A DNA stretch of 31,500 nt, taken from positions 1 to 31,500 of IMG/VR virus record IMGVR_UViG_3300042314_000439, one strand, 5' to 3'. Every line of letters begins with the position of its first letter. Positions within the stretch are counted from its first letter, which is position 1. Of the stretch, positions 8,910-31,500 are shown piece by piece. A program made the translations under genes and the position numbers. Origin of the DNA: a virus. The notes beneath the pieces are model-generated. The model did not search any database. It was not told the DNA's origin and saw nothing but the letters and a program-made list of their open reading frames with translations.

Positions 8910-9490
8910 ATACTTATTGTTCTATTATATCTATTGTGGTCGATGTCTAAAAGTGTATAAACTCCAAATGGCAATTCAATTGCGTTTTGTGTGCTTACTT
9001 GATTCCTATTGTCATACAAACTTGTAATGATTAAATACATTGCTTGCTTATAGTTTGAAGGTACATTAGCTGCGCTTGTATAGCCTGCTACAAACCTAAT
9101 TTTTAAAGCATTTAAACTATCTTTCATCGTTGGCACTTCACTAAGTTTAATTCTACAAACTGGACTTATTAAATCAACTTCATAAGTGCTTGAATTAATA
9201 GTCTGTTCAGTTCCATTTGCATCAATGTATTTAATACTTGTAATTGATTGAATTGGAAACTTATTTAAACTAATATCCACTATTTGCACATCTTGTTTGT
9301 CAAAATTAGCCTGCAATGTTTGTGTCATTAGTGGTCTCCATGTGAAACCTTCTACCCACTTACGAGCAGCGGTTATCAAAGATGTGATTAAGGCATCTTC
9401 TAAGCTATTTGTAACCCTTAAATTTAGCTTTGCTTCCGCTAATGTTATTGGCTCGCTTGATGGTTCTGTTATGACTGAATATGATTGCAC
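8906..9490 (-). CDS. Head-tail connector (adaptor) protein
   Basis: A 194-aa protein starting at GTG 9490, which overlaps the upstream TAG (TAGTG). It shows EPITLAEAKLNLRVTNSLED, LITSLITAARKWVEGFTWR, LMTQTLQANFD and a later LKIRFVAGY, the pattern of the gp6/gp15 head-tail connector (phiE125 gp8-like) family. The adaptor ring binds below the portal. It overlaps the next gene by 4 bp (ATGA-type coupling). Confidence 0.85.
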   Translation of the reverse strand: MQSYSVITEPSSEPITLAEAKLNLRVTNSLEDALITSLITAARKWVEGFTWRPLMTQTLQANFDKQDVQIVDISLNKFPIQSITSIKYIDANGTEQTINSSTYEVDLISPVCRIKLSEVPTMKDSLNALKIRFVAGYTSAANVPSNYKQAMYLIITSLYDNRNQVSTQNAIELPFGVYTLLDIDHNRYNRTISI

Positions 9491-9681
9491 TATTTAACCG
9501 CTTTTTCTGTTTTAGATTCTTTTGTTGCCTTTTCTATTTTTGGCTTTAATTCTTCAATCAATTCTGCAATGCCTAATTGAATTAATTCATCTGCTTGACT
9601 TGTTTCAAAGTCTCCTTCTTCTCCTTGTGAGTAGCCTAATCCAAAACCCATTGGAGAGGCTATAAATTTTATTCTTTTCAT
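9490..9681 (-). CDS. Small head-module protein
   Basis: A 63-aa protein: MKRIKFIASPMGFGLGYSQG, then GDFETSQADELIQLGIAELI and a lysine/glutamate-rich tail. The layout (short strand, GxGYxxG turn, then a helix with ADxLIxLGxA) is common in small proteins between capsid and adaptor genes of many phages. Its function is not known to me; a minor head or decoration role is possible. A strong hairpin separates it from the capsid gene. Confidence 0.65.
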   Translation of the reverse strand: MKRIKFIASPMGFGLGYSQGEEGDFETSQADELIQLGIAELIEELKPKIEKATKESKTEKAVK

Positions 9682-9697
9682 GCTTTTTATAATTTAG

Positions 9698-9730
9698 AAA
9701 TAATGAGGGGAGTCGAACCCCTCATTATTT
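9698..9730 (-). promoter_or_regulatory. Perfect 13-bp hairpin after the capsid gene, with a tRNA T-arm-like loop
   Basis: AAATAATGAGGGG (9698-9710) and CCCCTCATTATTT (9718-9730) are perfectly complementary. On the coding strand the 7-nt loop reads TTCGACT, which fits the tRNA T-loop consensus TTCRANY, closed by GGGG/CCCC as in a T-stem. It starts 14 bp after the capsid stop. Without a U-run it is more likely a partial terminator or 3'-end stabiliser of capsid mRNA. No full tRNA fits around it. Confidence 0.75.
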
Positions 9731-9743
9731 GACATTGTTAAAA

Positions 9744-11057
9744 TTAACCAGTAATCAAATCCAATGTTTTTACTATCGTACCTGCACGCTTGATGGTAGT
9801 ATCCCAATAAGTATTACAGATAATTCTTGTTTGACCTTCAGCCGCATTTGTATATGGATCAATAACGATATCCAATCCACCCCACTGGCATACTTTCAAG
9901 TTACTAAAATCACCTGCGATAACTGCCGAACAAGTTGCACTTGTTGTACCTTTAGTTAAGTTATTTGGTAGGTTTGAAGTCACTAAATAAGGAATATTAT
10001 TGATAAATCCAGTTGCACCATTAAAATATGAACCATAAGGAATTAACATTGCACCTGAACCAGTATCTACTGGAGTTGCCATCAATAATGCTTCAGTATT
10101 TGGATTAATTAACCAAAATATTTTGCTTGCATCTACGTTTCCATTCAATAATGTTTTTCTCATGTTCTGAATGTATGTTAGTGATGGTGCGCCACCATTA
10201 GCACCTAAAGCTAAAGTAGCTGCGGTTGCATTTGATGTGATACCAGTCATTGCATTTGATGAACCATTACCAGTTAATACTTTTCCCTCAACATAAGGAT
10301 ATAAAGCATTTTGTAATGATTGCAATAATTTTGCATCCATTGTAGGGTCTTGAATCATCAACTGATTTGATAATAAGATTTTACCTGCAATTCTCTTAGG
10401 TGAAACCGAACGATTTACAGTTACTGCATCTGCATCGGCTGCGGTTGCGTTTTCTGCTGCATCTGCAAAAGTCCATCCGGTTGAAAATCCAGTGTAATCT
10501 ACATTAGGAACCATACCCATTTCCCATTCTGCACCTACTTTGTCTAATACTCTGTTTGCTCTTAACACATCAAAGAAACCCATCTTATCAGTTTGGATAA
10601 AGTTTCCACCTGCACTTGATGAACCTGCACTCATTGCACGTTTTTGGATTGCGTTTAATGCTTTCAAGTTGATGTAATGACCATTACTTGATGCACCTAA
10701 TGAGCGTGCTTCTGTAACACCTTCATCTAAAATCTCACGCTCTAAACCAGTGATAGGCTCATTGCGATTGATTGAGTTGAAGAATTTAGTCATTGAGAAA
10801 TTACTCATTTCTCTTTCTTCTGCATTCATGCCATCATTTGACTTCTTGCTTTGTACTGATTTCTTTGCAAATTTCTCACGCAATTCAGCATCTTTAATTT
10901 GATTTTCAAAAGCCTCAACTTCTGATTGAATGTTTCTAAGTATAGTAGTTTCTTCAACTGATAACTCACGCTTTTCAGTCTCTGCTTTGTCTACCAACTC
11001 TGAACCTTCTGCTCTTTTTAGAGACTGTAATTGTCTCAATTCTACACTTGTTTTCAT
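9744..11057 (-). CDS. Major capsid protein, HK97 fold
   Basis: A 437-aa protein. Residues 1 to about 95 are charged and helical (ELRQLQSLKRAEGSELVDKA, EVEAFENQIKDAELREKFAK), a built-in scaffold (delta) domain of HK97 type. The rest has the phage capsid pattern: SAGGNFIQTDKMGFFDVLR, KVGAEWEMG, PKRIAGKILLSNQLMIQDP, KIFWLINPNTEALL and DIVIDPYTNA. The prohead protease just upstream should remove the delta domain. It is followed by a strong hairpin, as is common after highly expressed capsid genes. Confidence 0.93.
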   Translation of the reverse strand: MKTSVELRQLQSLKRAEGSELVDKAETEKRELSVEETTILRNIQSEVEAFENQIKDAELREKFAKKSVQSKKSNDGMNAEEREMSNFSMTKFFNSINRNEPITGLEREILDEGVTEARSLGASSNGHYINLKALNAIQKRAMSAGSSSAGGNFIQTDKMGFFDVLRANRVLDKVGAEWEMGMVPNVDYTGFSTGWTFADAAENATAADADAVTVNRSVSPKRIAGKILLSNQLMIQDPTMDAKLLQSLQNALYPYVEGKVLTGNGSSNAMTGITSNATAATLALGANGGAPSLTYIQNMRKTLLNGNVDASKIFWLINPNTEALLMATPVDTGSGAMLIPYGSYFNGATGFINNIPYLVTSNLPNNLTKGTTSATCSAVIAGDFSNLKVCQWGGLDIVIDPYTNAAEGQTRIICNTYWDTTIKRAGTIVKTLDLITG

Positions 11058-11643: not shown

Positions 11644-12938
11644 TATTGTTGCTGCCCTCCGATTGGCTCTGATTGTGTTAATTGTAAATTTTTCTCTGCT
11701 TGACCTTTCCAAAATTCAATAGCTTCATTAGCAGGTATCATGTTGCTTGGTACATAATTTATATTACTTGCCTCATTGTCTATTGTATTCTCGCCCCACA
11801 TCTTTCTAACTTCATTGGGTGTTATACCACCGCTTGTAAACATTGTTCTTGTCTTACGTTCCATTGCTGCACTATCACCTCTATAATATACTTGAGTATC
11901 AAAATAGCCATCCAATGTTTCACGCTCATTTATTGCAAATAGTTTCTTATCTGCTTCTTGCTCAAACCTTACTATCCAAGGCATCAAAGTGTCTGTTAAA
12001 TACTTAATATCTGTTTGTTCTAATGAACTATTGTTAGTATCTGATAAATCCGATAATTTACTTAATGGCATTCTAAACCATCGTGCAATTTCGCCTCTTA
12101 TCAAATTTTCAGTTTCTATAAATTGAGATTTTTGCGGGTCATAATTCATTTGCTCAAACTTCATCCCACTTGGACCACCACCAATACCACCTTTCGAGAA
12201 TGAATTGAGAAACATATTAATATACGTTTGCAGTTTCTTTTCATCATTTACACCCTCGAAAGTTAGCAAGCCACTCATAGCTGCACCTTCTTTAAAATAA
12301 TTGCTTGAATAATCTTGAATTGCTAATGCTTTCCCTAATGATTGAAGTTGAAACCCTAAAACAGATTGCCCCACCATTGTATTACCTGCACCTTTGATAT
12401 GAAATATTTCTTCGCTTGAATAAATACCTGCTAATTTTAAAGGCTCATAGTTTATAGTGTACCATAAATTTTTAGTATCAGTATCGTATTGAGGATAAAC
12501 AAAATTTGAATCTACATAGTGAATTTCTTCTACAAATCCGCTTGAATTTCTTACTATATAACCATAACCATTACCCCTACCGATTGCATCTTTTAAAATA
12601 GAGTATTTTATATCAAAAGGAATTGCATATCCATTAGGCTTTTTGTTTAGTAACTGATAAGCATTGTTTTTTGTTATTCTTGTTTTGTTACCATTAGATT
12701 CAGTTTTGATAACTACATAAGGTAGCTTGCTAATGTCTTCGCAAATGTTACGAATACAAGCATAATAAGTAGCTAATTGATTTACTGACCTCTCATTAAC
12801 AACTTCACCACTTTTTGCATATCCGCTAAAGAAATTAGATTGAGGCATCCCATTAATACCAGTTGCAGGCATTAAATTGGTTGGAGTTTTCGCTCTAAAA
12901 TTAATTTTTGGTAGATACTTTGTAAAAAAGTTAGCCAT
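11643..12938 (-). CDS. Portal protein (HK97 gp3 type)
   Basis: A 431-aa protein with portal features: VNQLATYYACIRNICEDISK (about residues 52-71), YQLLNKKPN, DAIGRGNGYGYIVRN, a FHIKG segment, a SNYFKEGAAMSGLL region, and IARWFRMPLSKLSDL followed by SSLEQTDIKYLTDTLMPWI. It forms the dodecameric vertex through which DNA enters. The C-terminal tail is Gln-rich. The gene lies between terminase and protease as in HK97. Confidence 0.92.
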   Translation of the reverse strand: MANFFTKYLPKINFRAKTPTNLMPATGINGMPQSNFFSGYAKSGEVVNERSVNQLATYYACIRNICEDISKLPYVVIKTESNGNKTRITKNNAYQLLNKKPNGYAIPFDIKYSILKDAIGRGNGYGYIVRNSSGFVEEIHYVDSNFVYPQYDTDTKNLWYTINYEPLKLAGIYSSEEIFHIKGAGNTMVGQSVLGFQLQSLGKALAIQDYSSNYFKEGAAMSGLLTFEGVNDEKKLQTYINMFLNSFSKGGIGGGPSGMKFEQMNYDPQKSQFIETENLIRGEIARWFRMPLSKLSDLSDTNNSSLEQTDIKYLTDTLMPWIVRFEQEADKKLFAINERETLDGYFDTQVYYRGDSAAMERKTRTMFTSGGITPNEVRKMWGENTIDNEASNINYVPSNMIPANEAIEFWKGQAEKNLQLTQSEPIGGQQQ

Positions 12939-12984
12939 ATACGCTACAAAATTGCAGTATATTTAATTAACTCAAGTTAACTAT

Positions 12985-13191
12985 TTAATATAGCCCAAAA
13001 AACTTTGATTTTGAAGCCTTAAAGGAGTTGTAAGATTTGTATTTATACTGTCTATACTTGCTGTAATACTCGCTTTCTAAGTGATTATAGGCTTCCTCTC
13101 CATTTTTAAAGTATGGTAAAAGGTTGAAGAATCGACTAAAATAGCCCTTAATTTGTGTTAAATCGTGCTTGTTTTCAGGTATTACGCTCAT
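12985..13191 (-). CDS. Hypothetical 68-aa protein between terminase and portal
   Basis: Basic, tyrosine- and lysine-rich 68-aa protein (HLESEYYSKYRQYKYKSYNS) starting at ATG 13191, right after the terminase stop (13193). No motif recognised. The gap to the portal start (12939-12984) shows no signal I can name. It may assist packaging by position, but there is no direct evidence. Confidence 0.65.
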   Translation of the reverse strand: MSVIPENKHDLTQIKGYFSRFFNLLPYFKNGEEAYNHLESEYYSKYRQYKYKSYNSFKASKSKFFGLY

Positions 13192-17329: not shown

Positions 17330-17556
17330 TTGTTACCTCCGTATGTTTCATTGTAGTATTGTTCAGGATTATATGAATCAAGTTCCAAATGAAAATGTCC
17401 TTCTTCATAAGATTTTATTATCTCCTGCTTCTCCATTTCTTTGGCTTGTTCAAGCAATCCATTAAATATTTGTGATGTTTGAATATTTTGGAATGGAATA
17501 GTATTGTCTATTTGTTCCCATAACCATTCTACTGCTGTTTGTTTTACTTGTTCCAT
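17326..17556 (-). CDS. Conserved phage protein of unknown function
   Basis: A 76-aa acidic protein: KQTAVEWLWEQID at the start, QAKEMEKQEIIKSYEEGHF in the middle, NPEQYYNETYGG at the end. The order TAVEWL ... QAKEMEKQQI is one I recognise from small proteins in many Bacteroidota phages; no function is known to me. It overlaps the 236-aa gene by 13 bp and the MazG-like gene by 4 bp. Confidence 0.7.
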   Translation of the reverse strand: MEQVKQTAVEWLWEQIDNTIPFQNIQTSQIFNGLLEQAKEMEKQEIIKSYEEGHFHLELDSYNPEQYYNETYGGNK

Positions 17557-18254
17557 AAGTCTTCAATCGTTATTTGTTTTGCCATGTTAATTACTTCTTT
17601 GCTGTCCATTGTGAGCGTTTCAATCTTTGCTATTAATTTTCTTCGCAGTAATAAATCATTCGTTTTAGATTGCATTTCTAAGTCTTCTAAAACATAATCA
17701 TAAGCCTCTTGAATATTTGCGTTAAACTCGATGTTACTTACCTTATTCGTATCTACTAAAATCTTATATATGTCGCCAATGCTTGGTTCATAAAGTCCAA
17801 AATGACCAGTTTTTTTATAAGTAGATTTAGCATAACTCATAAATTCATCTCTAATTCTTAGCTTATCTTCTGCGGTGTATTCCTTAATAGGTTCTATTCT
17901 TGGTGTAGAACGTATTTTAATCGCATCTAATCGCTTTTCTTCAGCCATAAAGGACTTAATCCATTGGTGAAAGGTTACGATGTTTAAACCGAAGTATTCG
18001 CCATAAACTTTTCGCACTCCATTTTGGAAGCATAAGTCAAGTTCATCAATCTTTAAGTTTATAAAGTATCGCTTAATTTCGTTTATTACTCCATTGGATA
18101 GGCTGATTAATTCCTTTGATTCGATTACCTTTCCGCAATCAATGTAGGTCTTTGCAAGTGTTTTAATCACTCGGTCTTTTAATTCTTGTTGCTGCATATC
18201 AACTATGAGTTTAGAGTTGAGCGCAGTTAAGTAGTGGTTGTCGTTTGTTTTCAT
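17544..18254 (-). CDS. Conserved phage protein, possibly replication-related
   Basis: A 236-aa mostly helical protein. The best conserved-looking part is DLCFQNGVRKVYGEYFG then LNIVTFHQWIKSFMAEEKR (about residues 73-107), a pattern I associate with unknown proteins of Bacteroidota phages. No Walker or nuclease motif. Its place after the replication-initiation-like gene (once the cassette array is removed) suggests a helicase-loader-like or other replication role, but this is only a guess from context. Confidence 0.65.
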   Translation of the reverse strand: MKTNDNHYLTALNSKLIVDMQQQELKDRVIKTLAKTYIDCGKVIESKELISLSNGVINEIKRYFINLKIDELDLCFQNGVRKVYGEYFGLNIVTFHQWIKSFMAEEKRLDAIKIRSTPRIEPIKEYTAEDKLRIRDEFMSYAKSTYKKTGHFGLYEPSIGDIYKILVDTNKVSNIEFNANIQEAYDYVLEDLEMQSKTNDLLLRRKLIAKIETLTMDSKEVINMAKQITIEDLWNK

Positions 18255-18255
18255 T

Positions 18256-18486
18256 TTAAAATGGTAATTTAATTGATTCTATTTGTATTTTTATTGCGTT
18301 TTTGCGGAGTTTTATTATGCCTAATTTTTGATTACCTACTAATACTGATTTACTGCCATTATTATATACTACTCTACATGGCTTTTCATTCATCCAAAAT
18401 TTATTTGAGTGAAATATCAATCCTTCAAAGTTAATAAATTTATAAGCAATAATTTTATCATCAATATCTAATTTTCTTTTTGACAT
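18256..18486 (-). CDS. Hypothetical 76-aa protein
   Basis: Basic 76-aa protein (pattern KFWMNEKPCRVVYNNGSKSV; KLRKNAIKIQIESIKLPF) with predicted strands and no known motif. It is the first phage gene downstream of the cassette array. Its ATG (18486) lies 40 bp after the array's left boundary (18526/18527), which would be 40 bp after the 243-aa gene if the array were absent. Confidence 0.6.
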   Translation of the reverse strand: MSKRKLDIDDKIIAYKFINFEGLIFHSNKFWMNEKPCRVVYNNGSKSVLVGNQKLGIIKLRKNAIKIQIESIKLPF

Positions 18487-18538
18487 TCAATGTTTTATTT
18501 AGCAAATAAGTTCTTATATCCAATAGTTATCGGCAACC

Positions 18539-18850
18539 TTATCGAACGACATCTCCATATGCCTTGTTGATAGCATTATTAAGTTCATTTTCCATAAGAA
18601 TATATCCGTGCTTACCTTCTGCAATAAGTTGAGCGTTTAACTTGTGTATATCTCTTAAAGCATTTTCACAAGCAATAAGTAATTCAGGAGCAGCGGCTAT
18701 TAAATCAGCATCCGACCTTTCGTAAACGTGGTCTGTTACACATTCGCCATCGTCTGACCAATGTATTTCAAAACCTTTTACTCCATTAGTTTCTCGGTTA
18801 TCTACTTTCCAACCGATTGTACCATCTTTAAATTTCCCTTTTGTAATCAT
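18539..18850 (-). CDS. Cassette 1 gene: phage-type protein of unknown function
   Basis: A 103-aa protein: MITKGKFKDGTIGWKVDNRE, then EIHWSDDGECVTDHVYER, and SDADLIAAAPELLIACENAL (about residues 66-85). The (N/D)AxLIAAAPxLLxAC phrase is widespread in small phage-encoded proteins; its function is unknown to me. The stop codon lies 12 bp from the left cassette boundary (18526/18527), the same spacing as in cassettes 2 and 5. Upstream of the start is attC A. No promoter was seen, so it is probably read by the phage operon. Confidence 0.7.
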   Translation of the reverse strand: MITKGKFKDGTIGWKVDNRETNGVKGFEIHWSDDGECVTDHVYERSDADLIAAAPELLIACENALRDIHKLNAQLIAEGKHGYILMENELNNAINKAYGDVVR

Positions 18851-18895
18851 TTTTTTATTTGTTTAATTGTTAATAATTCGTTTGAAAAAAAGGCA

Positions 18896-18983
18896 GCCGA
18901 TAACAGCACATAAGCAAAAGCCCAAATCCAACCGCACAATGCCAACGCTATTTGTGCCTTCGCTTATCTGCAAAACGTTAGGT
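18896..18983. repeat. attC-like site A
   Basis: Outer cores GCCGATAAC (18896-18904) and GTTAGGT (18977-18983) enclose arms AGCACATAAGCAAAAGC and GCCTTCGCTTATCTGC that pair with few mismatches, plus an inner GCACAA/TTGTGC stem. The 80 bp from 18901 to 18980 match site E at 75 positions. Its left core is complementary to the left boundary of cassette 1 (GTTATCGGC, 18526-18534). Confidence 0.8.
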
Positions 18984-18989
18984 GCAATG

Positions 18990-19166
18990 CTAATCCAAAA
19001 CACCTACTATCCAAATTGGACAAAATATTAGCCAGTACAAAAATCGTTCTTGCAAACTGACTGCTAAATTGTCTTTACCTATTGTTTTGCAATCGTTCCT
19101 CCAAATCAAATAGAATGGAATAAAGAGAACGATTTGCAGTAATACACACATCAATATTTTGTTCAT
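18990..19166 (-). CDS. Cassette 2 gene: small two-helix membrane protein
   Basis: 58 aa when started at ATG 19166 (an ATG ten codons upstream lies nearly in the attC core). Two hydrophobic helices, about residues 3-22 (ILMCVLLQIVLFIPFYLIW) and 45-57 (YWLIFCPIWIVGV), flank a polar loop RNDCKTIGKDNLAVSLQERF. It would sit in the inner membrane. The stop lies 12 bp from the cassette boundary at 18977/18978. Function not known; small membrane proteins are common integron cassette cargo. Confidence 0.65.
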   Translation of the reverse strand: MNKILMCVLLQIVLFIPFYLIWRNDCKTIGKDNLAVSLQERFLYWLIFCPIWIVGVLD

Positions 19167-19192
19167 TTTTGTTTCAATTTGTGAGAAGCACT

Positions 19193-19286
19193 GCACCTAA
19201 CAGCAAGTAAGCAATAGTGCAGAAACATTCTCGGTTAATAATTTAATTTATCGTAAGCACCATCGCTTACTTGCAAAACGTTAGGC
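19193..19286. repeat. attC-like site B
   Basis: Cores GCACCTAAC (19193-19201) and GTTAGGC (19280-19286). Arms GCAAGTAAGCAATAGTGC and GCACCATCGCTTACTTGC pair at 16 of 18 positions; both mismatches are A/C on the plus strand, meaning T/G wobble on the minus strand. The left core extends to 14 of 15 matches with the start of cassette 2 (from 18977). Confidence 0.85.
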
Positions 19287-19490
19287 GTTATTTTCTTGAG
19301 CAGCCCGTAAACAAGATGACCGAATACTGCCACAATAAGCCATTCCTTTTTCATTTGGTTTATAAATCCTGTAAGTCCATTCCATAAAGTTTTCAAGGTA
19401 ACTACCTTCTTCAAAGTACATTGTTTCACCTGCTTTATAATCAAAATGAAAACCTACTTTAGTGTCTTTTTTAAATTTTAATTCGTTCAT
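19281..19490 (-). CDS. Cassette 3 gene: hypothetical 69-aa protein
   Basis: 69 aa from ATG 19490 (the open frame starts six codons earlier, close to the attC core). Sequence features: MNELKFKKDTKVGFHFDYKA, MYFEEGSYLENFMEWTYRIY, ending CLRAAQENNA. No motif or membrane segment recognised. The TAA stop is formed by the TTA of the cassette boundary itself (19281-19283), so gene end and recombination core coincide. Confidence 0.6.
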   Translation of the reverse strand: MNELKFKKDTKVGFHFDYKAGETMYFEEGSYLENFMEWTYRIYKPNEKGMAYCGSIRSSCLRAAQENNA

Positions 19491-19509
19491 ATTTCTGAAT
19501 AAAAACAAC

Positions 19510-19605
19510 GCCTAACAAGGGTTTTGCGTAATAGCCCTATCAAGTGTCGTGGTTAATTTTAAGTTTATACTAAGGGCTACTACGCAAAGCCCCGATACGT
19601 TATAG
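19510..19605. repeat. attC-like site C
   Basis: Cores GCCTAAC (19510-19516) and GTTATAG (19599-19605). Arms GGGTTTTGCGTAATAGCCC and GGGCTACTACGCAAAGCCC pair with two mismatches. AACGCCTAAC is complementary to the start of cassette 3 (GTTAGGCGTT, from 19280). The loop also has GTGTCGTGGT (19544-19553), complementary to ACCACGACAC downstream (19630-19639), so a larger fold across the boundary is possible. Confidence 0.8.
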
Positions 19606-19683
19606 GATAGCTTTTTAGCCCAAAGCAGCACCACGACACATTGTAAATTATTTTTTTTGCCAACGCTATAAAATACAAATATT

Positions 19684-20112
19684 ATGAGCATACTAAGTGA
19701 AATTAAAGACCTACATTTTGTACTAAAATACATGTTAGTTAACATTGGTTTAACAGCACCTTTATTTTATATTGACATGTATTTTCTTAATAACAATTTA
19801 TTTAATACAGCCCCACTATACATACCAATAGTTTCTGCTTTTTGTATGTCTATTTGTTGGTATTATGCAACTACATCTATAATTGTTATCGGAAGTTTAT
19901 CGTCACCTAAAACAATCAATAAAGACTATACTGACCAAGTCCATTTTACATCAACTATGGTTTCAGTTTCTACAATTGCAATACTTTCGACAATATGTCT
20001 TTATTTTAGATTTACTTTCAGAAACTTTTTTCATTTGTGTTTTTTTACAATTGTACTCGGATTTATTATAGCTATTTTCAGTTTGTTGACGACTAAGAGT
20101 AACAAGAGCTAA
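19684..20112 (+). CDS. Cassette 4 gene: membrane protein, the only plus-strand gene
   Basis: A 142-aa protein with four hydrophobic segments (about residues 14-35, 43-72, 90-108 and 115-136; for example LYIPIVSAFCMSICWYYATT), so a likely four-helix inner-membrane protein. It is the only gene in the window that reads rightward, in the sense expected for the array if attC polarity is left to right. A short A-rich leader (ATACAAATATT) precedes ATG 19684. A minus-strand frame overlaps its 3' half but looks like an A/T-rich shadow. Function unknown. Confidence 0.65.
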   Translation: MSILSEIKDLHFVLKYMLVNIGLTAPLFYIDMYFLNNNLFNTAPLYIPIVSAFCMSICWYYATTSIIVIGSLSSPKTINKDYTDQVHFTSTMVSVSTIAILSTICLYFRFTFRNFFHLCFFTIVLGFIIAIFSLLTTKSNKS

Positions 20113-20278
20113 AAACAAAATAAAACAAATAAACATTAATAATACAATAACAATTTTGAATTTATTTTCTTTCTCCATGACACAAAAAAATAATTTACAA
20201 TTTTGCCCCGCACAGACAGGCAGTGGAGCATCTCCTTTGTCAATTTACCCTCTCGACAATAGAGAATAAGAAAGCCAC

Positions 20279-20405
20279 CCTATAACAGCACCTTGCTGCT
20301 ATTTTGGCTGTCCCTTTGGGACAATTACGTTGGTGGTTTGTATTTCATCTTTCTATTCATAATTTCGTGAAGCCAAAACATCAGCAAGCTGCGGAAACGT
20401 TATAG
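20279..20405. repeat. attC-like site D
   Basis: The longest site, 127 bp. Cores CCTATAAC (20279-20286) and GTTATAG (20399-20405). Arms GCACCTTGCTGCTATTTTGG and CCAAAACATCAGCAAGCTGC pair with three mismatches. The loop holds a further perfect hairpin TGTCCC-TTT-GGGACA. The left core and flank match the start of cassette 4 (GTTATAGGATAGCTTT, from 19599) with only A/C mismatches. Bases 20113-20278, between the cassette 4 gene and this site, hold no gene I can support. Confidence 0.8.
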
Positions 20406-20411
20406 CCAATA

Positions 20412-20804
20412 CTAAAGACCATCTATCGCTTCGACTTTTATTGTTCCTAAAGTGCCACTTGGTAACGATGATGAAGAATAAACATTATTCCAATTATTAT
20501 CTATTGCAAGTTGATGTAAAATAGTTCTGTAAATCTGATAAGTATTGCCAATAAATTCAGACCCATTATAACCTTTACTTGCATTGTCAGGTAAATCAGG
20601 CAATAATATTCTTTTCACTTGTTTTAAAAGACCTTCAACTTCATCACGCCTTTTCATTTGTTCATCAAACGGTAAACCACGCAACATTTCTTCAATGGTA
20701 TATCTCATTTCCCATTGACCACTTGCAAATCTTGACAAATCTTCAAGACAAAAAGAAACTAAACGCATTTGTTCCTCTGATAATTCTATTTTATATTTTC
20801 TCAT
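20412..20804 (-). CDS. Cassette 5 gene: conserved hypothetical protein
   Basis: 130 aa from ATG 20804 (an upstream in-frame extension would cross attC E). N-terminal helical part: KIELSEEQMRLVSFCLEDLS then RFASGQWEMRYTIEEML; central LLKQVKRILLPDL; then NTYQIYRTILHQLAIDNN and NVYSSSSLPSG. I recognise the EQxRLVxxCLEDxxRFxxGQ ... YRxILHxLA ... NVY layout from uncharacterised phage and Bacteroidota proteins. The stop is 12 bp from the boundary at 20399/20400. Like cassette 1, it looks like a phage-type gene carried as a cassette. Confidence 0.65.
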   Translation of the reverse strand: MRKYKIELSEEQMRLVSFCLEDLSRFASGQWEMRYTIEEMLRGLPFDEQMKRRDEVEGLLKQVKRILLPDLPDNASKGYNGSEFIGNTYQIYRTILHQLAIDNNWNNVYSSSSLPSGTLGTIKVEAIDGL

Positions 20805-20833
20805 AATCCAATTTTTAAATTTGTAAAAGTACT

Positions 20834-20921
20834 GGCTATAACAGCACATAAGCAAAAGCTCAAATTCCACCGCACAATGCCAACGCTATTTGTGCCTTCG
20901 CTTATCTGCAATCCGTTAAGT
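20834..20921. repeat. attC-like site E, at the stop codon of the replication gene
   Basis: Cores GGCTATAAC (20834-20842) and GTTAAGT (20915-20921, an exact GTTRRRY). The 80 bp from 20839 to 20918 match site A at 75 positions. The TTA at 20916-20918 is the complement of the TAA stop of the 243-aa phage gene, so the core belongs to the phage gene's end. GGCTATAAC is complementary to the start of cassette 5 (GTTATAGCC, from 20399). Confidence 0.85.
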
Positions 20922-21647
20922 ATTTTCATCGTGTATCATATTAAGTGCCTCTTTTGCTGAATTAACCATTGATTCCATTTTGCTCGGTTGACCATTTGAC
21001 AAATTTTGTCCTTTGTTATAATTATTACTTACCCACCTTTCTAATCTTCTATTTAAGTCCCAAGTCTTTTCTAATTCCTGCCTAAACTTTGTATTTGATT
21101 TATTTGGTTCTGTCCAATAGCCATAAAATTTATTTAAAGTTTCACGACCATATTGAGGTAAAAATATTTCTAATGTTGAAGCAAATTTTAATTTGCGTTG
21201 TTCTATATCATTTACTTTTACATTATCAGTTACAGTTACATTTACATTATCATTTACATTTACAGCGATGTTTGCGATAGGTGGCGATTGTAAATTATCG
21301 CCCTGCGATGTTTTGCGATGTTTTGCGATTATTTCAGCATCTTCAAGTGTAATTTCATTTTTAATAACTTTTGAATGTAAATCTTCATTCCACCTTTTTA
21401 AATTGCCTAATCTACCATTTATAGATTTAGTTTCTGCGCTGCCTTCCCATTTTAATAAATCACGTTTTAGCTGCAATTTAATAGGCTCAAAAACTAAATT
21501 GATAAGTAGGTCATCAGATGTTGGGTTCTCATCATTAACGTATGCGTAAATGTGTTTAAATAACTTTCCTGCAATCTCATCAGGTAGCATATCAATAACA
21601 CTTTTTTGGTCGCAATAAAGAATAAATGATTTTTTGTTTTCAGCCAT
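20916..21647 (-). CDS. Replication-initiation-like protein (DUF6291-type N-terminus)
   Basis: A 243-aa protein. N-terminal SFILYCDQKSVIDMLPDEIA, KLFKHIYAYVND, FEPIKLQLKRDLLKWE matches the domain seen in replisome-organiser-like phage proteins of Bacteroidota. A Val/Asn repeat linker (about residues 125-147, VNVNDNVNVTVTD) precedes a C-terminal KFYGYWTEPNKSNTKFRQEL then KTWDLNRRLERW, also typical of these proteins. It probably binds the origin and loads the host helicase; no polymerase or helicase gene is in the window, so host enzymes would be needed. The stop codon coincides with the core of attC-like site E. Confidence 0.75.
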   Translation of the reverse strand: MAENKKSFILYCDQKSVIDMLPDEIAGKLFKHIYAYVNDENPTSDDLLINLVFEPIKLQLKRDLLKWEGSAETKSINGRLGNLKRWNEDLHSKVIKNEITLEDAEIIAKHRKTSQGDNLQSPPIANIAVNVNDNVNVTVTDNVKVNDIEQRKLKFASTLEIFLPQYGRETLNKFYGYWTEPNKSNTKFRQELEKTWDLNRRLERWVSNNYNKGQNLSNGQPSKMESMVNSAKEALNMIHDENT

Positions 21648-31153: not shown

Positions 31154-31344
31154 TTTTTCAATCCCTTTTCAAAGTCATCAATAGACTTATCGGTTATCAT
31201 TTTTATAATCCAATTACAAAAACGAAATATCCAATAGATAATCGTACAAATCGAAGCTATGGAAGCGAATAAAAAATTATGTTTTTCAAGTAAGGCTATG
31301 AAGCCCAATACTGAAACGAATATATCTAAAAATCTATGAGGCAT
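31150..31344 (-). CDS. Small membrane protein at the head of the lysis block
   Basis: A 64-aa protein with two hydrophobic helices (about 8-20 LDIFVSVLGFIAL; 26-49 including FASIASICTIIYWIFRF) and a charged C-terminus (SIDDFEKGLKK). Its first eight codons also occur at the left edge of the window (1-24). A class II holin-like topology is possible. It overlaps the 70-aa gene copy by 11 bp. Confidence 0.6.
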   Translation of the reverse strand: MPHRFLDIFVSVLGFIALLEKHNFLFASIASICTIIYWIFRFCNWIIKMITDKSIDDFEKGLKK

Positions 31345-31500
31345 CTTCTTCTAAAATTGGTTTGTAATCTATCTGTGGTAATGCAATAAGTTTGTCTTTA
31401 ATATCAATAAAATCCAAGTCTTCAATTACTGCAATATTGCATACATACTTACCATTTGCATCTAATATAAACTCTAAAATAGAACCGTTCAAATAAGTTC
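31321..31500. repeat. Right copy of near-identical terminal direct repeat
   Basis: Matches 1-180 at 175 of 180 positions, with the last 127 bases identical. See the left copy. The distance between copies is 31,320 bp, the likely genome length. Confidence 0.9.
31334..31500 (-). CDS. 3' part of the second copy of the 70-aa gene
   Basis: Same gene as at 14-226, cut by the window edge so that the first part is missing. It encodes the C-terminal 55 or so residues ending ALPQIDYKPILEEDAS, with Tyr where the left copy has Phe. The stop is TAG (31336-31334). If the genome is circular this is the same locus read twice, with population variation. Confidence 0.7.
   Translation of the reverse strand, partial: TYLNGSILEFILDANGKYVCNIAVIEDLDFIDIKDKLIALPQIDYKPILEEDAS

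Follow-up and report, generated by a model that had tools for sequence, protein, structure and literature searches.

An integron-type gene-cassette array in a ~31 kb tailed phage and its probable service in trans by a non-IntI integrase

The virus record IMGVR_UViG_3300042314_000439, analysed here over its whole length of 31,500 bases (the window), contains a run of short open reading frames (ORFs) separated by attC-type hairpins. The locus raises two questions: whether it is an integron-type cassette array, and which enzyme could have built it in a record that has no tyrosine recombinase (PF00589) match anywhere along its length. We conclude that the window almost certainly carries an integron-type cassette array, and we regard it as very likely that this is a functional-type array in a ~31 kb tailed phage, run in trans by an integrase other than IntI.

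Positions 18508-20918 consist of an attI-like site followed by five cassettes, each closed by an attC-type hairpin (Table 1). The initial annotation had reported five segments and five hairpins here, and both are present; shuffled windows gave 0-1 hairpins at an equal threshold. Its limits for the array, 18527-20915, required some adjustment, as the right edge (G20915|T20916) lies inside the stop codon of the neighbouring gene and the start now falls at the attI-like site. All five hairpins run TAACA...CGTTA and stand at the right of their segments. The two ends of each segment match, and the matched ends vary between segments, as had been proposed, although the 9-17 bp originally given become 8-10 bp when only contiguous, mismatch-free bases are counted from GTTA. 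The ends of cassette 1 are GTTATCGGC/GCCGATAAC; for cassettes 2-5, 14-16 of the first 20 positions agree. Summed over the segment ends, 27 contiguous bases match beyond GTTA, for which the chance expectation is ~4^-27. The flanks of one hairpin mismatch each other (1-4/8), as would be expected if each had its partner at the opposite end of its own cassette. Complementary ends that are specific to each cassette are the mark left by circular cassettes that open at G|TT.

Independent recognition of the hairpins comes from a covariance model, R1, which was trained on 23 integrase-adjacent attCs from other phages and contains no window sequence. Applied to both strands of the window, R1 finds exactly the five hairpins, all on the + strand, with E-values from 2e-13 to 0.009 (the next match has 0.73). 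The absence of any attC model match had been named in the initial annotation as evidence that would speak against an array; all five hairpins are found. A cluster of attC sites lacking an integron integrase (CALIN) is defined by two or more attCs with no integrase next to them; with five attCs the array is a CALIN, as that annotation had also held. Two of the hairpins have counterparts at 99% identity among integrase-adjacent attCs elsewhere: H1 in the stretch L272, and H3 in L338 as well as L339.

Table 1. Features of the cassette array and its right-hand neighbour. Matched ends are contiguous, mismatch-free bases counted from GTTA; bits and E-values of attC sites are from R1, and that of the flanking gene is from its family match.
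Feature	Coordinates	Strand	Content	Matched ends	Score
attI-like site	18508..18529	+	AAGTTCTTATATCCAATA|GTTA, crossover G18526|T18527		
Cassette 1 (unit TT to G)	18527..18977	+	ORF 18539-18850 (-), 103 aa, and attC H1	9 bp	
attC H1	18901..18980	+	80 nt		36.7 bits, E=1.2e-5
Cassette 2	18978..19280	+	ORF 18990-19196 (-), 68 aa, and attC H2	10 bp	
attC H2	19198..19283	+	86 nt		48.6 bits, E=3.4e-8
Cassette 3	19281..19599	+	ORF 19281-19508 (-), 75 aa, and attC H3	10 bp	
attC H3	19513..19602	+	90 nt		73.2 bits, E=2.1e-13
Cassette 4	19600..20399	+	ORF 19684-20112 (+), 142 aa, and attC H4	8 bp	
attC H4	20283..20402	+	120 nt		23.1 bits, E=0.0089
Cassette 5	20400..20915	+	ORF 20412-20804 (-), 130 aa from ATG, and attC H5	10 bp	
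attC H5	20839..20918	+	80 nt		37.4 bits, E=8.2e-6
Flanking phage gene DUF6291	20916..21647	-	243 aa, PF19808		E=1.5e-20

The same type of site is widespread in viruses. The H1-type hairpin pattern was found in 78 viral stretches vs. 2 among ~85,000 bacterial and archaeal genomes; its ~80-nt core is nearly identical between stretches while the flanks diverge, and several of these stretches hold arrays of 5-10 attCs. At least three matching bases beyond GTTA were present in 85 of the 118 consecutive attC pairs (shuffled mean 9, maximum 19), compared to only 12 when the same match was sought within single hairpins. Hairpins in the pattern-derived loci lie overwhelmingly on one strand (204 vs. 9). 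Pairs adjacent to an integrase behave likewise, with matched ends in 73/106 (shuffled mean 10.6, maximum 20). The genuine IntIA integron in Vibrio phage MK672802, used as positive control, gave 10/12 matched segments and the same box polarity (13 vs. 0) at a hairpin score threshold of 8; at 8.5, zero segments were obtained. Over 167 sites the arms of attC covary, including positions 21-25, which had no role in site selection (z ~9-10).

Comparison of close relatives reveals that the cassettes come and go. At the same locus, phages with near-identical flanking genes hold no cassette (L085, L088, L091), one (L171, L251), two (L086/L087/L250/L252, with two different ones in L247) or at least three (L248), and the window phage holds five. 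Since cassette content differs at one point in close relatives, cassettes move; the initial annotation had named a fixed order of the same five genes as its other counter-evidence, and the relatives instead hold 0 to 5 differing cassettes. This gain and loss in near-identical phages, together with the matched ends and the model matches to all five hairpins, bears out its reading of an integron-type array in a phage. The left junction AAGTTCTTATATCCAATA|GTTA is repeated across eight stretches with first cassettes of several kinds, and the right junction GTTA|AGTATTTTCATC is common to the window, L084, L086, L247 and L251. The 19-mer TTCTTATATCCAATAGTTA of the attI-like site occurs in 8 viral stretches, 7 of which reach beyond the site and show various first cassettes, then an attC on the same side. 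Individual cassettes also recur among different neighbours: copies of cassette 1 (450 bp) stand at 97% identity in both L026 and L032, and a full-length copy of cassette 2 at 94% identity is present in L064. A search for an empty attI (TAGTTAAGTATTTTCATC) returned one unrelated match (L244) and no clean empty site, and in the cassette-free L085, L088 and L091 the junction is different and shortened.

Hairpins that lie between ORFs, two of which (H1 and H5) are near-identical to each other and have near-identical copies in many phages, might instead be terminators or REP (repetitive extragenic palindromic)-like palindromes, with the intervening genes exchanged by homologous recombination between repeats; L248 and L251 do combine one ORF segment with differing hairpins. 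We consider this explanation highly improbable, as it predicts no cassette-specific complementary ends, no one-ended attI, no fixed polarity and no linked integrase, and in sister phages the cassettes at the same locus end in different hairpin sequences. The L248 and L251 pair also offers an observation of its own: their first cassettes (12584-12900, reverse strand, and 119-420, respectively) open near-identically (GTTATACGCAATTTGGAAACTGCTCC) and have different attC hairpins, as if hairpins had been swapped independently of the ORF.

The second question, that of the enzyme, is addressed by larger phages. Three larger array-bearing contigs have a tyrosine recombinase at the head of the array, and a search queried with four of these proteins yielded 80 viral integrase loci on contigs of up to 362 kb. 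Across these loci, 184 attCs lie 5' of the integrase gene on the divergent strand, compared to 8, 7 and 5 in the other three positions. Between gene and array, 52-87 bp upstream of the start codon, is an attI, TATATATAATA|GTTA, found in 59-60 of the 76 loci with enough flank, and the first cassette differs in each. Loci with similar integrase regions have different first cassettes (e.g., L299 vs. L300, L301 vs. L302). The attI thus stands next to an integrase gene at the linked loci, and the window has a resembling attI-like site with no integrase beside it.

These phage integrases do not fall within IntI. Their matches to the XerA/XerC/XerD and integron-integrase models all lie below cut-offs, the best being the sub-cut-off match to NF040815, and in 48 attC-bearing records there is no match to TIGR02249 over its cut-off. 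Aligned with two IntIs, they show no counterpart of the insertion that IntI carries between conserved blocks two and three; in other words, the linked integrases have no IntI-specific additional domain (near patch III). In a maximum-likelihood tree, three IntIs group separately (99/98), and the phage attC-integrases make up one clade (99/97). Two bacterial proteins fall within the latter clade, and one of them, L369, likewise has a correctly placed attC. E. coli XerC/D fall outside this clade. XerA/XerC/XerD (NF040815, TIGR02224, TIGR02225; PDB 4a8e, 1a0p) share their fold and catalytic motifs with the phage integrases. Xer recombinases work on dif-type sites and are not known to serve cassette arrays. 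A bacterial integrase of 268 aa sits within the phage clade (L375, G363:C1, 4.1 Mb contig, 9123-9929); the hairpin scan found no array there, and R1 gives two weak matches (12953-13006 and 17895-17979, E ~0.002).

On this evidence, the window array very probably belongs to the pool of cassettes served by this integrase clade, and a recombinase of the clade is likely to catalyse cassette movement, as its linkage to attI and attC suggests. Circular cassettes, each of one ORF and one attC hairpin, would have been inserted successively at the G|TTA of the attI-like site, just past the DUF6291 stop codon. The recombinase responsible is not in the window phage and would have to work in trans. Foremost among the candidates is the tyrosine-recombinase clade that, divergently transcribed and with its own attI, heads attC arrays in many larger phages; relatives of that clade on Bacteroidia chromosomes would be an alternative source. 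The candidate belongs to the XerA/XerC/XerD-like group and has no IntI insertion, and the system would therefore be an integron whose integrase is not IntI.

A more conventional explanation is a passive CALIN, that is, a piece of a classical IntI-type chromosomal integron that only an ordinary host IntI moves. Phage integrons and CALINs published so far have all been framed in terms of IntI, and for Polaribacter phage P12002L recombination of attC2 with attI1 by IntI1 is on record (PMC9892861). R1 matches this phage near methyltransferase genes; IntI can probably process such sites. We nevertheless judge a passive origin improbable: besides the lack of TIGR02249 matches, near-identical attCs occur in arrays at non-IntI integrases with a conserved attI, the H1-type counts given above indicate a cassette pool that is mainly viral, and the cassette ORFs are inverted compared with IntI integrons.

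This inversion is a consistent property of the phage arrays. In integrase-linked arrays, the main ORF points toward the integrase, opposite to attC polarity, in 59/59 scorable cassettes, and in pattern-derived loci opposite ORFs outnumber co-oriented ones 49 to 5. Four of the five window ORFs are inverted and run with the minus-strand operon of the phage; cassette 4 has the sole canonically oriented one. The co-orientation of ORF and attC that marks classical IntI integrons is thus not the rule in these phage arrays, whereas it prevails in the Vibrio control (7:2) and in Bacteroidia chromosomes (18:2). Because attC is nearly palindromic and 49/54 and 59/59 scored ORFs face the other way, one could suppose that the strand assignment is itself inverted, and that normal cassettes are being read on the minus strand. 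This seems quite unlikely given that attI is on the + side with no hairpin ahead of it, that a single inserted cassette has its hairpin on the far side (L171, L251), and that the TAACA...CGTTA box polarity equals that of the true Vibrio integron and of chromosomal arrays with the same boxes, the ORFs of both being co-oriented as just given. With the polarity as assigned here, ORFs of the phage version point to attI and integrase, which in the window is the direction of phage transcription, and the inserted genes would therefore be read from phage promoters. Phage cassettes would depend on phage promoters, not on an attI-side promoter.

DNA methyltransferases account for 6 of 83 cassette proteins (five N6/N4, one Dam). 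Further proteins look like an exonuclease, a PAPS reductase or a GNAT acetyltransferase, and most have no family. Such cargo fits counter-defence and general phage accessory functions, and methyltransferases were likewise noted in phage CALINs by Qi et al. (PMC9892861). In the window, the cassette 1 ORF matches phrog_1273 (E=1.8e-9, function unknown) and the proteins of cassettes 3 and 5 have no family match; the stop codon of the cassette 3 ORF falls inside the R' box. In one integrase-linked phage array, a cassette (L343:3433-4413) has a gene for a tyrosine recombinase of another kind (PF00589 E=9.8e-38).

Related arrays are also present in bacterial chromosomes, where R1 matches 43 of 198 Bacteroidia genomes at E <= 1e-4. 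No arrays were seen within 1.5 kb of the bacterial recombinases at first; R1 and longer stretches showed them further downstream. In L415, L417-L420 and L264, a relative of 360-420 aa with an N-terminal extension is followed by co-directional arrays over many kb (L415 and L417-L420 were selected for having attC and recombinase on one contig and imply no prevalence). Two of these loci have an apparent attI 77-98 bp downstream of the recombinase gene, and 14/21 chromosomal segments have matched ends (shuffled mean 2.4). The recombinase of a metagenome-assembled genome (L082) was considered as a phage type and dropped, being of the longer chromosomal type instead. Many relatives of the chromosomal recombinase gene lie within ~250 bp of a contig end (L415-L420, L264/L265 type), as would be expected if arrays break assemblies.

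We lean toward a broader reading in which a large integron system, having evolved with a recombinase outside IntI at its centre, is common to Bacteroidota phages and chromosomes. It would have two layouts, with a divergent integrase and inverted cassettes in phages and a co-directional integrase and canonical cassettes in chromosomes. Large phages would carry the integrase, and small ones like the window phage would use the common cassette pool. Standard integron searches would overlook the integrase because they require the IntI domain; IntegronFinder 2.0 named just one complete integron in Bacteroidota (PMC9024848), and on this reading integron surveys would underestimate this phylum.

Several points weigh against assigning the window array to this integrase. 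The mobilising enzyme is absent here, and its proposed identity rests on shared attCs and the resemblance of attI, while the window attI (TTATATCCAATA|GTTA) deviates from the integrase-linked attI consensus. H4 is the weakest of the five hairpins (E=0.009), because R1 was built from sites of 79-92 nt. Several relatives of the recombinase have no detectable attC nearby, and there are none near the closest integrases in isolates, those of flavophages Freya, Ingeline and Leef (34-37% identity). The contigs are metagenomic, with a T4-type capsid gene in 14 of the 50 integrase-bearing records and Terminase_6N in 14. Finally, the gene to the left of attI also varies at the locus, and ordinary phage mosaicism could lie behind some of the differences between relatives. 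This small gene (18256-18486) is replaced by a non-homologous one in several relatives, and the slot is variable in L086, L171, L245 and L247, yet without attC.

The initial annotation described phage-borne cassette arrays as hardly described, but phage CALINs, one of them in a Bacteroidota phage, were published in 2023 (Qi et al., PMC9892861). The phage genomes of that study hold attC clusters with no integrase, accompanied by small ORFs and DNA methyltransferases, much as here; what is unreported there is an array of five matched cassettes at an attI-like site, turnover in sister phages and a linked non-IntI integrase. The integrase of related phages, which is not IntI, and the inversion of the ORFs relative to attC likewise go beyond what that annotation had seen. 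In P12002L (L384), R1 matches 38035-38090, 38879-38936 and 39122-39245 on the strand opposite the ORFs. These matches surround methyltransferase and Mom-like genes and tie an isolated, culturable phage to this attC family.

Among known systems, the IntIA sedentary integrons of Vibrio (MK672802) share TAACAA...GCGTTA attCs, a divergent integrase, attI and matched ends, but their integrase has the IntI additional domain and their ORFs are co-oriented, in contrast to the insertion-free enzyme and inverted ORFs of the phage system. Archaeal integrons also lie outside the classical hosts and are mostly CALINs (Ghaly et al., 2022, PMC9668308), although archaeal IntIs keep the additional domain that phage integrases do not have. 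That domain has been taken as defining (PMC9668308; PMC2426708). The window array therefore appears integron-like in its working, yet the enzyme is most likely outside IntI. Our search of the open-access literature, with subscription papers and preprints outside its scope, found no description of attC arrays, whether in phages or in Bacteroidota, that are headed by an integrase other than IntI. IntI is what defines integrons, and a second integrase lineage, if true, would free cassette capture from one enzyme family. Having an attI, an attC population and phage hosts of its own, such a lineage would allow a direct test of the need for the IntI domain. It would also make phages active users of cassette exchange rather than mere carriers, and could explain how Bacteroidota phages come by their mosaic patches of small genes, which include DNA methyltransferases, exonucleases and unknown proteins.

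The host phylum is very probably Bacteroidota, as the initial annotation had suggested; the pointers are indirect, namely integrase and attC relatives in Bacteroidia genomes and in a Polaribacter phage. The record has clear terminase and major capsid genes by family searches. Megablast of 12 kb vs. GenBank phages gave no match, Rfam at gathering and relaxed thresholds gave none in the window or the array, and a tRNA/tmRNA scan found none. The termini (1-180 vs. 31321-31500) overlap by 180 bp at 97% identity, with differences that reach the amino-acid level; because of this overlap the genome is probably nearly complete at ~31.3 kb, and the ends probably reflect a circularly permuted genome assembled out of a mixed population. 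The five segments sit between a gene at 17544-18254 and the DUF6291 gene, whose stop codon (TTA/TAA) doubles as the outer half of the last R' box. Within cassette 4 (19599-20402), an 18 bp perfect inverted repeat (19640-19657 / 20184-20201) flanks the ORF and a fragment of an attC core (TGCCAACGCTAT) lies at 19658; this may be a composite cassette.

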